Notes under the pieces: generated by a model
Told to the model about the DNA's origin: nothing
Seen by the model: only the letters and a program-made list of their open reading frames with translations
Databases searched by the model: none
Part shown: positions 57,166 to 63,978 of the stretch, piece after piece
Layout of the letters: the number at the start of each line of letters is the position of its first letter
Position numbering within the stretch: the stretch's first letter is position 1
Made by a program: the position numbers and the translations under genes
Source of the DNA: Chloroflexota bacterium
GTDB lineage: Bacteria; Chloroflexota; UBA11872; VXOZ01
Direction: 5' to 3'
Assembly: GCA_022824225.1 (NCBI GenBank)
Contig: JAJEAH010000007.1
Coordinates: forward strand, 46,613 to 110,612
Length of the DNA: 64,000 nt

Positions 57166-57612
57166 TTACGTAGCCGCGACCGGAACCTGCTCGCCCTGCA
57201 CTTTGGTATAGACCCGCCGGGCCAGGTCGCCTGCGATAGGCGCCGGTTGACCCAGCCGGACGCTCTCTTCCACGTAGTCGTAGAGTTCGTCGATGTCTTC
57301 CTTGGCATTCAAGCGCTGGAACCACAGACCCCTGCCAAACAGGTAGAGAAACGCATTGTTGCCCAGGGCGCAATTGCCCAGACAGCCGCCGCCGTCGTCT
57401 GCCGTGAACACAATGTCCACCTGGCCCGCTATGCCGCGGCGGCGCGCTTCCCGGAGATAGTGGGCCTTATCGATCTTTGGAAACGTAATGCCGTTGCCGC
57501 AGCAACACGCCTCGCAAACGAAGAGGACACCGGCAATCGTTTGGATTACTTCCTGGTCTCCATCCAGCGTGGGCACAATCATGAGATCGGGACGACCGGG
57601 GATACCCTTCAT
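57166..57612 (-). CDS. (2Fe-2S) ferredoxin-domain protein
   Basis: VCEACCCGN and GGGCLGNCALGNN cysteine motifs. Confidence 0.7.
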   Translation of the reverse strand: MKGIPGRPDLMIVPTLDGDQEVIQTIAGVLFVCEACCCGNGITFPKIDKAHYLREARRRGIAGQVDIVFTADDGGGCLGNCALGNNAFLYLFGRGLWFQRLNAKEDIDELYDYVEESVRLGQPAPIAGDLARRVYTKVQGEQVPVAAT

Positions 57613-57681
57613 TAATTCTTCCTTACCTTGCGGGCTGCGCGCTCATTTCGAGCCGGCTGATTCTGTAAAGTGTAAGAACCT

Positions 57682-57729
57682 CGGTCGAGCGAGCGCTCGG
57701 TCGAGCGAGCGCTCGGTTGAGCGGTCGCC
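57682..57729. repeat. 16-bp tandem repeat CGGTCGAGCGAGCGCT (2 perfect + 1 degenerate copy)
   Basis: direct reading, 57682-57697, 57698-57713, 57714-57729. Confidence 0.9.
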
Positions 57730-57829
57730 GGTGAGGGCAGGACACCCACACCCATCGCGACGAGCCGGGGATCTCTTCCCAAAGCTACCAGAATCTGCGA
57801 ATGGTTGTCAACTACGGCGGGCCGCGCTC

Positions 57830-57859
57830 TTGACGATTCTCCCCGCCTCATGGTATAAC
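57830..57859 (+). promoter_or_regulatory. sigma70-like promoter TTGACG-N18-TATAAC
   Basis: -35 57830-57835, -10 57854-57859; predicted start ~57866. Confidence 0.7.
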
Positions 57860-57909
57860 GTACTAGCCGTACGCTGGGATAGGATAACCGGAGAATAACA
57901 GAAGCTGCT

Positions 57910-58005
57910 GTGAACCCCGCAGGGATTGCCAAGAGCCTCGCGCTACGCGGCGGCCACAAGCCTGAGTTGTGGCCGGTCGTATTGATGATTCTTGTAGCCG
58001 CCTAG
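57910..58005 (+). CDS. candidate attenuation leader peptide (M)NPAGIAKSLALRGGHKPELWPVVLMILVAA*
   Basis: GTG start; C-terminal run GTC GTA TTG ATG ATT CTT GTA GCC GCC TAG upstream of ilv/leu operon. Confidence 0.45.
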   Translation: MNPAGIAKSLALRGGHKPELWPVVLMILVAA

Positions 58006-58195
58006 GCGGCATGAGAGCATATTACACAACACACACGCAACAACGGAACGGCAGCACTTCCCAGCAGCGCGTAGAGAATTGATGCATTCACAGGACTAGG
58101 GTCGCCAAACGGACGGCACATTCAAGCAGGCGGCTGTGATGCACACCACTGATAGCGACAACGCACACTGTACGCAGAGCAGAAGATCTTGGGAA

Positions 58196-58227
58196 TGCCC
58201 GTTCCAGGCTAAGGAACGGGTTTTTTG
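58196..58227 (+). terminator. intrinsic terminator CCCGTTCC-aggctaa-GGAACGGG-TTTTTT
   Basis: 8-bp perfect stem 58198-58205/58213-58220 followed by T6. Confidence 0.9.
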
Positions 58228-58263: not shown

Positions 58264-58608
58264 GTGTTGAGCGATTATTCGGAGACATCCGCAGACATCG
58301 GCGCAGACGTTGAGCACGCGCCGCCAGCCATGCGCTGGAGCAGGCGGGCGCTGCTCATGGCCGGCGTGGCGTTCTCGGCTGCCATACTGGTGCTGGGGGC
58401 GCTTGCGATCGCGCTGCTGGGCACATCCATCGCGCTCATTACCGGCCTGGTGGAGGGGAACCGGGAAGCGGCCGCGGTTGCCCTGGCAGAAATCTGGCGC
58501 CTGAGCCCGCTCTTGCTGGCGGCGGAATTCGTGCTGGCGTGGCTGCTGGTAGCGCTCGTGCTCATCGTGCGCCGCGCTCTAGCCAAGTATGGCATGGAAG
58601 TTCCCTGA
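58264..58608 (+). CDS. small multi-span membrane protein (DUF1634-like, tentative)
   Basis: ORF 58225..58608, internal GTG start with AAGGA upstream; three hydrophobic segments. Confidence 0.55.
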   Translation: MLSDYSETSADIGADVEHAPPAMRWSRRALLMAGVAFSAAILVLGALAIALLGTSIALITGLVEGNREAAAVALAEIWRLSPLLLAAEFVLAWLLVALVLIVRRALAKYGMEVP

Positions 58609-58877
58609 GACCGGCCCAGCACACGCCGCAATCCCTTAACAGCGGCCGGTTGGACGAGTATCATGAAGTGGATGAAAACTGTGACACTGATGGAGGCAGG
58701 AACCTATATGGTAGAGCGCAGCCCCTCGCCGGGCGTCGCTGTGCCTTATGGGGCAGTAGGCTGCGGCCAGACCCAACTGGGCTGAATGCAGCCAAGGAGA
58801 TGGCGCGCACGCCGCTCTCCCTCGATAGCCGATTTCGATAATTCTGGTGAACGAGCGAAGCAAGAGGTAGGAAACTG

Positions 58878-60581
58878 ATGAAACGTACCGGAGCAGAGAT
58901 CATCCTGGATAGCCTGGTGGCGCACGGGGTGCATTCGGTCTTTGGGTATCCGGGCGGCGCGTGTTTGCCGCTCTACGACGCCCTGTACCACTACCAGGAC
59001 AGGCTCAACCACATTCTCGTGCGCCACGAACAAGGCGCGGCTTTTGCCGCGGACGGCTATGCCCGCGCCAGCGGCGACGTCGGCGTCTGCATCGCCACCA
59101 GCGGTCCCGGCGTCACCAACCTCGTCACCGGCATTGCCGGCGCCCACATGGACTCCGTCCCAGTGGTCGCCCTGACCGGCCAGGTGCCCCGCAACCTGCT
59201 CGGCACCGACGGGTTTCAGGAGACCGACGCCACCGGCGTGATGCTGCCAATTACCAAGCACAATTGGCTCGTGATGAACGCGGAAGAACTGCCGCGCGTG
59301 ATGGAAGAAGCGTTCCACATCGCCAACACGGGCCGCAAAGGCCCCGTGCAGGTGGACGTCCCGAAGGACGTGTTCTTGGAAGAGGTAGAATTCGACGGCT
59401 TCCCGCCCCCCCGCATTCCCGGCTACAATCCCGATGAGGGGACCCAACCCGATCCCACACAGGTGCGCGCAGCCGCGGAAGTTATCTACGGCTCGGAAAA
59501 GCCAATCATCCTGGCAGGGCACGGGATCCACTATTCGGACGCCTACGACGAACTCCTGGCTTTCGCCGAGAAAGCGAATATCCCGGTCATTACCACGCTT
59601 CACGGTGTTTCGTCCTTCCCGGAGAGCCATGAGCTTTCATTCGGCATGGTGGGCATGCACGGCAACCTCTACGCCAATTGGGCCGTGGATCGGGCGGACC
59701 TGCTCATCGCATTGGGCATGCGCTTCGACGACCGCGTCACCGGCCGGTTGGAGGACTTTGCCACCAACGCCCGCATCATACACGTGGACATCGACCCCGC
59801 GGAGATCGGCAAGAATGTCGCCACCGACGTGGGCATCGTGGCCGATCTCAAGCCCACGATTCGCGCGCTCACTGACGAAATCGAGCGCCTGGACCACACG
59901 CCTTGGGTCAAGCAGATTTGCCAGTGGCGCGAAGACCATCCCAGCTTGGCGATCCGGGAGACCGAAATCGTGCTGCCGCAATGGGTTATTCGCCAGATCT
60001 ACCACATAACGAACGGCGAGGCGATTGTGGTCACCGACGTGGGCCAGGCCCAAATGTGGGCGGCGCAGCACTTCTGGTACGACCGGCGCAACACGTTCTT
60101 CTCGTCGGGCGGCCTCGGCGCTATGGGCTACGCCTTCCCCGCGTCCATCGGCGTCAAGTATGCGCGGCCCAACGAGCAGGTCTGGTGCATCATTGGCGAC
60201 GGCGGTTTCCAAATGACTCTCCAAGACCTCGCGGTGGTCCGCGAGCACGACGTAGACGTCAAGATTGCCATCATCAACAACAACCATCTCGGCATGATCC
60301 GCCAGTGGCAGACGCTCTTCTACGAAAGCCGCTTCATGAGCGCCAAGCTGGAGAATCCGGACTTCGTCAAGCTGGCCGAAGCCTACGGCATTCCCGGCCT
60401 GCGCGCGAGCACGAAGAGCGATGTCGTCAAGGTGCTGAAAGAGGCTGAGAAAATACCCGGTCCCGTGTTGATGGACCTGGTTGTGGACGAAGTTGAGAAA
60501 GTCTACCCGATGGTCCCGGCCGGCTCCAGTCTGGCCGAAACTATCGAGGGCGATGAAGTGGAAGAGGCACGCTACGCATGA
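58878..60581 (+). CDS. ilvB: acetolactate synthase, large subunit
   Basis: MKRTGAEIILDSLVAHGVHSVFGYPGGACLPLYDAL; GDGGFQMTLQDLAVVREHDVDVKIAIINNNHLGMIRQWQ. Confidence 0.96.
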   Translation: MKRTGAEIILDSLVAHGVHSVFGYPGGACLPLYDALYHYQDRLNHILVRHEQGAAFAADGYARASGDVGVCIATSGPGVTNLVTGIAGAHMDSVPVVALTGQVPRNLLGTDGFQETDATGVMLPITKHNWLVMNAEELPRVMEEAFHIANTGRKGPVQVDVPKDVFLEEVEFDGFPPPRIPGYNPDEGTQPDPTQVRAAAEVIYGSEKPIILAGHGIHYSDAYDELLAFAEKANIPVITTLHGVSSFPESHELSFGMVGMHGNLYANWAVDRADLLIALGMRFDDRVTGRLEDFATNARIIHVDIDPAEIGKNVATDVGIVADLKPTIRALTDEIERLDHTPWVKQICQWREDHPSLAIRETEIVLPQWVIRQIYHITNGEAIVVTDVGQAQMWAAQHFWYDRRNTFFSSGGLGAMGYAFPASIGVKYARPNEQVWCIIGDGGFQMTLQDLAVVREHDVDVKIAIINNNHLGMIRQWQTLFYESRFMSAKLENPDFVKLAEAYGIPGLRASTKSDVVKVLKEAEKIPGPVLMDLVVDEVEKVYPMVPAGSSLAETIEGDEVEEARYA

Positions 60582-61099
60582 GACACGTCATCATCGTAGA
60601 CGTTGAGGACCATCCCGGCGTCCTCAACCGGATTGCCAGCCTCTTCCGCAAGCGGGCGTACAATATCGAGAGCTTGGCCGTCGGGCACTCGCACCGCCCC
60701 GGTATTTCCCGTATGACGATTGTCGTCGCAGCGGACCACAATGAGGCGCTGCAGGTCGTAAAGCAGTTGGATAAGCTCATCGAGGTCGTGTCCATCACCG
60801 ACGTCACGGAACAGCGCCATGTCTCCCGGGAGATGGCTCTGGCCAAAGTGGCGGCGCCGGAGATGAAACGCACTGAGATCTTGCAGCTCGCAAATGTTTA
60901 CCGCGCGCAAGTGGTGGACGTATCGCCGGGCAGCATCATCTTGGAAGTAACCGGCGATGAAGACAAGATCGACTCATTTGTGGAGATCATACGCCCGTAC
61001 GGTATCCTGGAACTGACCCGCACCGGCGAAGTCGCCATGGTGCGGGGCCGGGCGATGCCAACGCCCCACGTCCTTGTGGAGGAAGGGCCGGCGGCATAG
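60578..61099 (+). CDS. ilvN: acetolactate synthase, small subunit (ACT domain)
   Basis: MRHVIIVDVEDHPGVLNRIASLFRKRAYNIESLAVGHS; 4-nt overlap with ilvB. Confidence 0.96.
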   Translation: MRHVIIVDVEDHPGVLNRIASLFRKRAYNIESLAVGHSHRPGISRMTIVVAADHNEALQVVKQLDKLIEVVSITDVTEQRHVSREMALAKVAAPEMKRTEILQLANVYRAQVVDVSPGSIILEVTGDEDKIDSFVEIIRPYGILELTRTGEVAMVRGRAMPTPHVLVEEGPAA

Positions 61100-61185: not shown

Positions 61186-62181
61186 GTGGTTCAGGTCTAC
61201 TACGACGAAGATGCAAACCTCGATCTGCTCAACGATAGGACCATCGGCATCATAGGGTACGGCAGCCAGGGACACGCCCACGCCCTGAACTTGCGCGATA
61301 GCGGGTGCTCGGTGATGGTCGGCCTCTACGAAGGGAGCAGTTCCTGGTCGAAGGTGGAGAGCGACGGTCTGCAGGTCGGAACGACGGCCGCGGTGGCGCA
61401 GCAGGCGGACCTCGTCATGATGCTGACGCCGGACACCGTGCAGCCCAGCCTCTACCAAGAGTCCATCGCGCCGCACCTGCGGGCGGGACAAGTCTTGCTC
61501 TTCGCCCACGGCTTCAACATCCACTTTCAACAAATCGTTCCCCCAGATATGGTCGACGTGAGCATGGTCGCCCCGAAAGCGCCCGGCCACCGCATGCGCG
61601 CAACGTTCGAAGAAGGCAACGGCGTGCCGGGCCTGATCGCGATCCAACAGGACGCCAGCGGCAATGCCCGTGAGTTGACCCTGGCGTACGCCAGGGGCAT
61701 TGGCTGCACCCGCGCCGGCGTGCTCAACACGACGTTCAAGGAAGAGACCGAAACCGACCTCTTCGGCGAGCAGACGGTTCTCTGCGGCGGCGTGAGCGCG
61801 CTGGTGAAGGCGGCGTTCGAGACTCTGGTCGAGGCCGGCTATCAGCCGGAAATCGCCTACTTCGAGTGCATGCACGAGCTCAAGCTCATCGTGGACCTCT
61901 TCTACCAGGGCGGCCTGAACTACATGCGCTATTCCGTAAGCGAAACGGCCGAGTACGGAGACTACAGCCGCGGCCCGCGCGTGGTAGACGACCACGTCCG
62001 AGAAACCATGCAAGAGATTCTGCGCGAGATTCAGACCGGTGAGTTTGCCCGCGAGTGGATTTTGGAGAACATGGCCGGCCGGCCCGCCTTCAACGCCCAC
62101 CGCGAAATGGACAAGGAACACCAGATAGAAACCGTGGGCAAGAACCTGCGGGCTATGATGCCATGGCTCGACCCAAAGTAA
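61186..62181 (+). CDS. ilvC: ketol-acid reductoisomerase
   Basis: [70 protein letters not shown]. Confidence 0.97.
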
Positions 62182-62412: not shown

Positions 62413-63978
62413 ATGCGAACCATACAAATCTTCGATACAACGCTGCGCGACGGTGAGCAAGCGGCGGGCGGCTCCCTGACGGTAGACGAAAAACTCTACC
62501 TGGGCCAGCAACTGGAGCGCTTGGGCGTTGACATTCTGGAGGCCGGCTTCCCCCGCACGTCGCCCGGCGACTTCAAGGCGGTGCAACTCCTGGCGGAAAA
62601 GCTGCGAGACGTACAGATATGCGCCCTCTCCGGCTTCAAGCCCGATCAGGTGGAAGCGGCGTGGGAAGCAATCAAGGAAGGCGCGGCCCCACGTATTCAC
62701 GTCTTCATCTCGTCCAGCGACATTCACCTGGAACGCCAACTGCGCATGTCGCGCCAGCAGGTCCGCGAGGCTGCGGCGGCGTGTGTGCGGCAAGCGGCCG
62801 GATACTGCGCCAACGTCGAATTTTCGGCCATGGACGCGACACGCAGCGACTGGGACTTTCTCTGCCTGTTGTTCGGCGACGCCATCGCGGCGGGTGCGCG
62901 CGTAATCAACGTGCCCGACACCATGGGCTACACACAACCCCATGAGTTTGCCGAACTCCTCCAGTACTTGCGCGCCAACACGCCCGGCATCGAGGACATC
63001 ACGCTCTCCGTGCACTGCCATAACGACCTCGGCCTAGCCAACGCCAATTCTCTGGTGGCCATACTGAACGGCGTCGACCAGATCGAATGCACCATCAACG
63101 GCGTCGGTGAGCGTGCGGGCAATGCCTCCCTGGAAGAGGTGGCGATGAACACCACCGTGCGCAAGGACTTCTTCCAAGTGACCCACGGCATCAAGACGGA
63201 AGAAATCCACCGCTCCAGCCGCATGGTGAGCGAACTCATGAACATGCCGGTGCAGCCCAATAAGGCGATTGTCGGCGCAAACGCGTTTGCCCACTCCTCC
63301 GGCCTGCATCAGGACGGCATGCTGAAAGACCGGCAAACGTATGAGATCATGACGCCCCAGAGCGTGGGCATGGGCGGCAGCCGCATCGTCCTCGGCAAGA
63401 CCAGCGGCCGCCACGCGTTTCGCGATCAGCTCGCCAAGATGGGCTATCACCTCAGCGAGCAGGATTTCCAGGAGGCGTTTGACCGCTTCAAGGATCTCGC
63501 CGATAAGCGCCGCAACGTGACGGCCCGCGACATCGAGGCGTTGCTCTCCAGTGACGTGCTGCAAGCCAAGGAGTACTTCCACCTGGACCACGTGCAGGTG
63601 AGTTGCGGCGACCACAGCATCCCTACGGCCACGGTGCGGATTACCGACGTGGAAGGGCAGACGATGGAAGATGCGGCTCTGGGTGATGGGCCGGTGGATG
63701 CCGTCTGCAAAGCCATCAACCGCATCATCGACGTGCCCGCGGAACTCACCGAGTTCCGCGTCCAGGCCGTTACCGAAGGCATAGACGCGCAGGGCGAGGT
63801 GAGCATCCGCCTGGAGAGCGAGGGAGTGTCCGTTACCGGCTACGGCGCCGATACGGACATCATCGTTGCCAGCGCAAAAGCCTATATGAACGCCCTGAAT
63901 AAGCACATCTACGCCCAGAATAGCAGGGCTACACAGGAAGAACAGGCACCGGTCGGGGCGACAGGTTCGCCGTCGTAG
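62413..63978 (+). CDS. leuA: 2-isopropylmalate synthase
   Basis: IQIFDTTLRDGEQAAGGSLTVDEKL; LSVHCHNDLGLANANSLVAI; C-terminal LeuA allosteric domain. Confidence 0.96.
   Translation: MRTIQIFDTTLRDGEQAAGGSLTVDEKLYLGQQLERLGVDILEAGFPRTSPGDFKAVQLLAEKLRDVQICALSGFKPDQVEAAWEAIKEGAAPRIHVFISSSDIHLERQLRMSRQQVREAAAACVRQAAGYCANVEFSAMDATRSDWDFLCLLFGDAIAAGARVINVPDTMGYTQPHEFAELLQYLRANTPGIEDITLSVHCHNDLGLANANSLVAILNGVDQIECTINGVGERAGNASLEEVAMNTTVRKDFFQVTHGIKTEEIHRSSRMVSELMNMPVQPNKAIVGANAFAHSSGLHQDGMLKDRQTYEIMTPQSVGMGGSRIVLGKTSGRHAFRDQLAKMGYHLSEQDFQEAFDRFKDLADKRRNVTARDIEALLSSDVLQAKEYFHLDHVQVSCGDHSIPTATVRITDVEGQTMEDAALGDGPVDAVCKAINRIIDVPAELTEFRVQAVTEGIDAQGEVSIRLESEGVSVTGYGADTDIIVASAKAYMNALNKHIYAQNSRATQEEQAPVGATGSPS

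Follow-up and report, generated by a model that had tools for sequence, protein, structure and literature searches.

The stretch of DNA analysed here (the window, 64,000 nt) comes from a 3.37 Mb genome whose ilvB has its nearest named relatives in Dehalococcoidia and other Chloroflexota MAGs, and it carries a run of forward-strand genes for branched-chain amino acid synthesis. These are ilvB at 58878–60581, encoding the large subunit of acetolactate synthase (Pfam TPP_enzyme N/M/C), ilvN at 60578–61099, encoding the small subunit (ALS_ss_C and ACT), ilvC at 61186–62181, encoding ketol-acid reductoisomerase (KARI_N/KARI_C), and a leuA-type gene at 62413–63978, encoding 2-isopropylmalate synthase (HMGL-like and LeuA_dimer). 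They are preceded by a gene for a 114-aa membrane protein of unassigned function at 58264–58608 (+), in which two hydrophobic stretches are visible by eye. This protein is 50–59% identical among congeners, has no counterpart in the other 35 genomes of the class and matches no Pfam or NCBIfam family. Throughout, the genus sample consists of the window species (G000) and five further species (G001–G005), and the order membrane protein, ilvB, ilvN, ilvC is the same in the congeners. On the reverse strand, a divergent gene at 57166–57612 encodes a 148-aa protein that has its cysteines in clusters (CEACCCGN and CLGNC), looks ferredoxin-like by eye and has no Pfam or NCBIfam match, and a short tandem or inverted repeat, GGTCGAGCGAGCGCTCGGTCGAGCGAGCGCTCGG, occupies 57680–57725 between the divergent genes. 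An Rfam scan of the whole window returned an SRP RNA, a selenocysteine tRNA and one further tRNA, all away from the region described below; the selenocysteine tRNA (RF01852, 37292–37387) indicates a capacity for selenoproteins.

The nearest gene upstream of the ilv region points the other way, and the leader must therefore have its own promoter. A sigma-70-type promoter, TTGACG-N18-TATAAC, is located at 57830–57859 (+), with its hexamers and spacing kept in all six species (the −10 reads TATAAG in the others), and would place the start of transcription near 57866. It is missing from the list produced by a consensus scan because its −10 hexamer does not end in T. Upstream of the −35 hexamer, a 34-nt block at 57781–57814, AAGCTACCAGAATCTGCGAATGGTTGTCAACTA, is nearly invariant in the six aligned species, and its core, GCGAATNGTTGTCAAC, occurs without mismatch once per genome, only at this site. 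The block contains GTTGTCAAC (reverse GTTGACAAC) and may be an operator, a divergent promoter or the −35 of the divergent gene. A possible second promoter, TTAACA-N17-TATCAT, was found by scan at 58636–58664 (+), before ilvB, and is conserved in the alignment. From this promoter-like site, the region 58636–58760 continues into a stretch that is almost free of gaps and contains an ATG (MKWMKTV...), which may represent an internal promoter or a second small ORF. A small ORF starting at 58663, with its ATG within TATCATG, was considered as a second leader peptide and rejected, as its ends and its peptide are variable despite about 30 gap-free codons in the congeners.

Between the first promoter and the membrane protein gene, a short ORF at 57910–58005 (+) runs from GTG to TAG over 31 codons and reads VNPAGIAKSLALRGGHKPELWPVVLMILVAA*. 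An earlier note on this DNA had pointed to a short ORF with a branched-chain tail at this place, and the ORF is indeed there; it is the only one of 12–50 codons, on either strand of the 64 kb window, with at least six Ile, Leu or Val residues among seven near its end. All six species of the genus have the 31 codons followed by TAG, the start codon is ATG except in the window species, which has GTG, and in all six the ribosome-binding site is weak, as the earlier note had remarked for this one. In the six-species alignment, the 96 columns of the ORF contain no gap, compared with 10 gap columns among the other 277 leader columns, and the ORF frame is free of stops in every species, compared with 5–15 stops in the shifted frames. 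Of the 36 pairwise codon differences within codons 9–16 (SLALRGGH), 26 leave the amino acid unchanged, compared with 26% in column shuffles (p = 0.005), while codons 2–8 and 17–22 vary freely. A test of synonymous bias over the whole ORF was not significant (p = 0.11), in part because the bases concerned are also constrained by RNA stems. The ORF is predicted from these patterns to be translated. The earlier note had asked whether related genomes keep an Ile/Leu/Val-rich ORF here: the ORF, its frame and its stop are kept in six of six, but the share of Ile and Leu in the tail varies.

Ten of the 30 residues after the start are Ile, Leu or Val in the window species, six of them among the seven residues of the tail, which is encoded by the run GTA TTG ATG ATT CTT GTA at 57979–57996 together with a GTC at 57976. 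Leu10, Leu12, Leu20, Val24 and Val29 are invariant in the six species, and in G003 the tail drops to three of seven, all Val. The earlier note had described the control codons as disfavoured, and a calculation of codon usage, based on 28 long ORFs of the window of which a few may be spurious, bears this out: GTA accounts for 10% of Val codons and CTT, CTA and TTA for 7%, 3% and 1% of Leu codons, though the bias against ATT (24% of Ile) and TTG (18% of Leu) is mild. With the same usage table applied to the congeners, the joint choice of Ile, Leu and Val codons is improbable in the window species (p = 0.0015) and in the other five (p = 0.0003–0.006), the six tests not being independent of each other. 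GTA, CTT, CTA and TTA recur in the leader ORFs, and CTG never occurs.

An intrinsic terminator conserved in the six species lies at 58197–58226 (+), ahead of the first structural gene. Its 5′ arm falls in a segment at 58193–58205, GAATGCCCGTTCC (segment 3), which is delimited by alignment, pairing tests and duplex energies and would also serve as the 3′ arm of an antiterminator; its 3′ arm, GGAACGGG, and U-tract occupy 58213–58226 (segment 4). In the terminator stem, which begins at 58197, 100% of alignment cells are paired across the six species, with a z score of −3.61 in the window. The 5′ arm of the antiterminator, GGAACGGCAGCACTTC (segment 2), is found at 58045–58060 (+), about 130 nt ahead of the terminator, and its consensus GGRACGG(CA)GCAUUC (GCACUUC in the window) is complementary to the terminator 5′ arm, GAAUGCCCGUYCC. 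Segments 2 and 3 can pair in all six species at −20 to −24 kcal/mol, compared with −15.5 to −17.4 kcal/mol for the terminator. In the congeners the antiterminator helix comprises 7 bp, a 2-nt bulge and up to 6 further bp, and the window variant is slightly longer. Its seven-column core is perfectly Watson-Crick paired in six of six species, whereas the next best stretch anywhere upstream pairs at 69%. In 2000 column permutations, 100% pairing of the core was never attained. In the antiterminator 96% of cells are paired, falling to 33–55% when the 3′ arm is slid by 1–3 columns. One position changes jointly in segments 2, 3 and 4, reading A/T/A in the window and G/C/G in the five congeners. Shuffle-based covariation was not significant in this set of six similar sequences, in which the stems are mostly invariant.

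Two hairpins and a candidate third stem lie upstream of, or reach into, segment 2. Hairpin A (57949–57977, +), formed by GGCGGCCACA and TGTGGCCGGT, lies inside the ORF, with 96.7% of cells paired and a z score of −3.46 in the window. Hairpin B (57985–58020, +; z −4.05 in the window) holds the Val/Leu tail in its 5′ arm, places the stop codon in and next to its CUAG loop and has an invariant GCCGC/GCGGC core. Codons 9–12, encoding Ser-Leu-Ala-Leu at 57934–57945 (segment 1, +), form a candidate anti-antiterminator arm: an unconstrained RNAalifold consensus pairs them with segment 2 in a stem that encloses hairpins A and B (to 58042–58052, 96% of cells). For the congeners this 1:2 stem is calculated at −9 to −11 kcal/mol, compared with only −1.4 in the window species, where 57904–57911 (GCTGCTGT) offers an alternative 8-bp partner for 58048–58055, and it is the least certain element of the switch. 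The earlier note had proposed that two GGCGGC blocks, at 57949–57954 and 58005–58010, compete for the same GCCGCC at 57997–58002. All three blocks are present, but the proposal holds only in part: the first GGCGGC forms the 5′ arm of hairpin A with 57968–57977, and GCCGC/GCGGC forms hairpin B. The decisive competition lies farther downstream, between 58045–58060 and 58193–58221, and the GGCGGC blocks as the main switch were replaced by the scheme of segments 2, 3 and 4. A scan of ribosome positions by equilibrium folding was noisy and gave no clean on/off pattern per codon; when the leader up to the stalled ribosome is removed, so that no pairs form across the ribosome, most simulated positions favour the antiterminator in each of the six species.

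Taken together, the features at 57910–58226 very probably attenuate transcription of the ilv-leu operon by the classical, ribosome-mediated mechanism. This reading draws on what can be seen in the sequence, namely the ORF, its rare codons, the terminator, the antiterminator complementarity, their conservation and the operon context. A leader peptide for a branched-chain amino acid operon, as suggested in the earlier note, gains support from the ilvB, ilvN, ilvC and leuA genes downstream, from conservation in six species and from the terminator and antiterminator, which that note had not noticed. From the same features we infer that the ribosome stalls within the ORF, which codons are decisive and in what order the RNA folds, with Val and Leu as the probable amino acids sensed. 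In this scheme, a ribosome would follow RNA polymerase through the leader ORF. With sufficient Val-tRNA and Leu-tRNA, it would complete the ORF and depart, hairpins A and B would re-form, and the antiterminator arm would be concealed by pairing of 58042–58055 with codons 9–12, a role that the start region 57904–57911 may play in the window species; segment 3 would then pair with segment 4, forming the terminator and switching off the operon. Under a shortage of Val or Leu tRNA, the ribosome would stall either at the rare codons for Leu10 and Leu12, where it would cover segment 1, or in the Val/Leu tail, where it would disrupt hairpins A and B, and the freed segment 2 would pair with the emerging segment 3, block the terminator and turn the operon on. 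Segment 1 contains the invariant Leu10 and Leu12, an arrangement known from textbook attenuators, and the Val/Leu tail adjoins hairpins A and B and extends into their arms. With segments 2 and 3 so far apart, a ribosome that has finished the ORF may have time to leave before the terminator is synthesized.

The same terminator and antiterminator could also belong to a structured RNA switch, either a riboswitch or a protein-controlled terminator, that works independently of translation, the ORF being incidental and conserved through the stems. The best-conserved stretches of the ORF do coincide with stems, the whole-ORF coding test is not significant and the tail residues are variable, all of which would suit such a switch. 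However, it would not be expected from a gapless ORF with conserved start and stop and a stop-free frame, from synonymous changes in codons 9–16 or from rare Ile, Leu and Val codons in six of six species; moreover, the leader matches no Rfam family and contains, besides the stems, no conserved unpaired block resembling a ligand pocket. We consider this explanation improbable.

Lower still is the probability of a leader that carries no more than an ordinary intrinsic terminator, in which the antiterminator match arose by chance and the operon is driven only from the second promoter at 58636–58664. This account, which we regard as very unlikely, can call on the conservation of the promoter-like site before ilvB and on the position of the terminator ahead of the membrane protein gene, but the nearest upstream gene points the other way and supplies no transcript for the terminator to stop, the promoter at 57830–57859 is conserved, and the permutations never reproduced the antiterminator complementarity. 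It is hardly credible that the peptide acts instead as a nascent-chain arrest sensor, with SLALRGGH...LW..V....VAA stalling the ribosome in response to a metabolite and not to codon supply: Ala11, Arg13, Gly15, His16, Trp21, Ala30 and Ala31 are invariant without being Ile, Leu or Val, and synonymous changes underlie some of them, but most of these residues lie in RNA stems and sensing of codon supply is the simpler account of the rare Ile, Leu and Val codons.

The element appears confined to the genus. A covariance model spanning the ORF to segment 2 gave one match in each of the six species, none in the 35 other genomes of the class (41 in all) and none beyond the genus in a sample of 301 genomes of the phylum, in searches run with strict filters that can lose weak matches. 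In other families of the class, no conserved equivalent was found in front of ilvB, where T-boxes occur instead; T-boxes have been reported in Chloroflexota (PMC2494555). Among the 34 other class genomes with an ilvB ortholog, 32 have a T-box 49–941 nt upstream of ilvB, and one of the two without has a contig end about 200 nt upstream of the gene. The specifier triplets of these T-boxes, read by eye, appear to be CTC (Leu) or GTC (Val), and because T-boxes with Leu and Val specifiers occupy the same position in relatives, control by tRNA is to be expected at this operon. The window leader gave no match to the T-box family (RF00230) at the gathering score or at E up to 1, and no T-box was found near ilvB in the six species of the genus, which keeps one elsewhere, before a gene that looks trpE-like by eye. 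Compared with 4227 families of Rfam 15 at E up to 1, a search that covers motifs catalogued in Rfam, the leader gave only two chance-level matches, the ilvB-linked and ppGpp-sensing classes being unmatched. Since 32 of 34 other class members have a T-box before ilvB, it seems likely that the T-box was exchanged for a leader peptide, and the simplest reading is that the genus lost the one and gained the other at the same operon. In a narrower version, only the tRNA-sensing part of an ancestral Leu/Val T-box was replaced by the leader peptide and the terminator was kept. The terminator sequence GCCCGTCCC...GGGACGGGTTTTTTGTTG of the window leader recurs in the ilvB T-box terminators of G027 and G030, and at loci L109 and L111 (about 1220–1255) the T-box terminator ahead of ilvB closely resembles that of the attenuator in sequence; we regard such a swap of the sensor alone as unlikely. 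Within 500 nt upstream of ilvB, loci L088 and L090 each contain two tandem terminator-like units, with two GGTGGTACCACGGGAG T-box blocks in L090. The T-box of the class and the attenuator described here occupy the same genomic position and would respond to the same amino acids, but the T-box binds tRNA directly whereas the attenuator would sense it through the ribosome, without T-box sequence.

In the attenuators of the enterobacterial ilvGMEDA and ilvBN operons, stalling on branched-chain amino acid codons selects the antiterminator over the terminator. The leader described here would follow the same principle, with fewer control codons (7–10 of 30) arranged in two zones and in an unrelated phylum. 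It also resembles the Corynebacterium ilvBNC attenuator (ilvL peptide MTIIRLVVVTARRLP; ilvB-II motif), which has a branched-chain-rich ORF before ilvB, a terminator, an antiterminator and an anti-antiterminator, and CUU and GUA as control codons (PMC11857589, PMC10272879). However, by eye the ilvL peptide has no similarity to the one encoded here, the Corynebacterium terminator and antiterminator overlap closely whereas 132 nt separate segments 2 and 3, and the present system differs in its 31-codon ORF and in having a membrane protein as the first gene. Candidate ilvB leaders in Mycobacterium and Streptomyces likewise combine a short ORF that carries an Ile/Val/Leu run with a terminator ahead of ilvB, but there the run overlaps the terminator hairpin, whereas here the terminator lies about 190 nt past the stop codon (PMC1262725). 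The ilvB-OMG and Leptospira ilvB motifs are ilvB-linked RNA motifs that were reread as leader ORFs (PMC10272879); the present leader has no Rfam match at the gathering score, nor any beyond chance level at E up to 1. A literature search, with subscription papers mostly outside it, found no branched-chain leader-peptide attenuator described in Chloroflexota. Attenuation of ilvB by leader ORFs has been argued to be common (PMC10272879), and the leader would be a further case of that known principle, one in which a 31-codon ORF bears control codons while being constrained by RNA stems. Its likely exchange with a T-box is the unusual point: a replacement limited to one genus lets two sensors of tRNA charging that share their input and output be compared in nature, and offers an example of one regulatory RNA taking the place of another.
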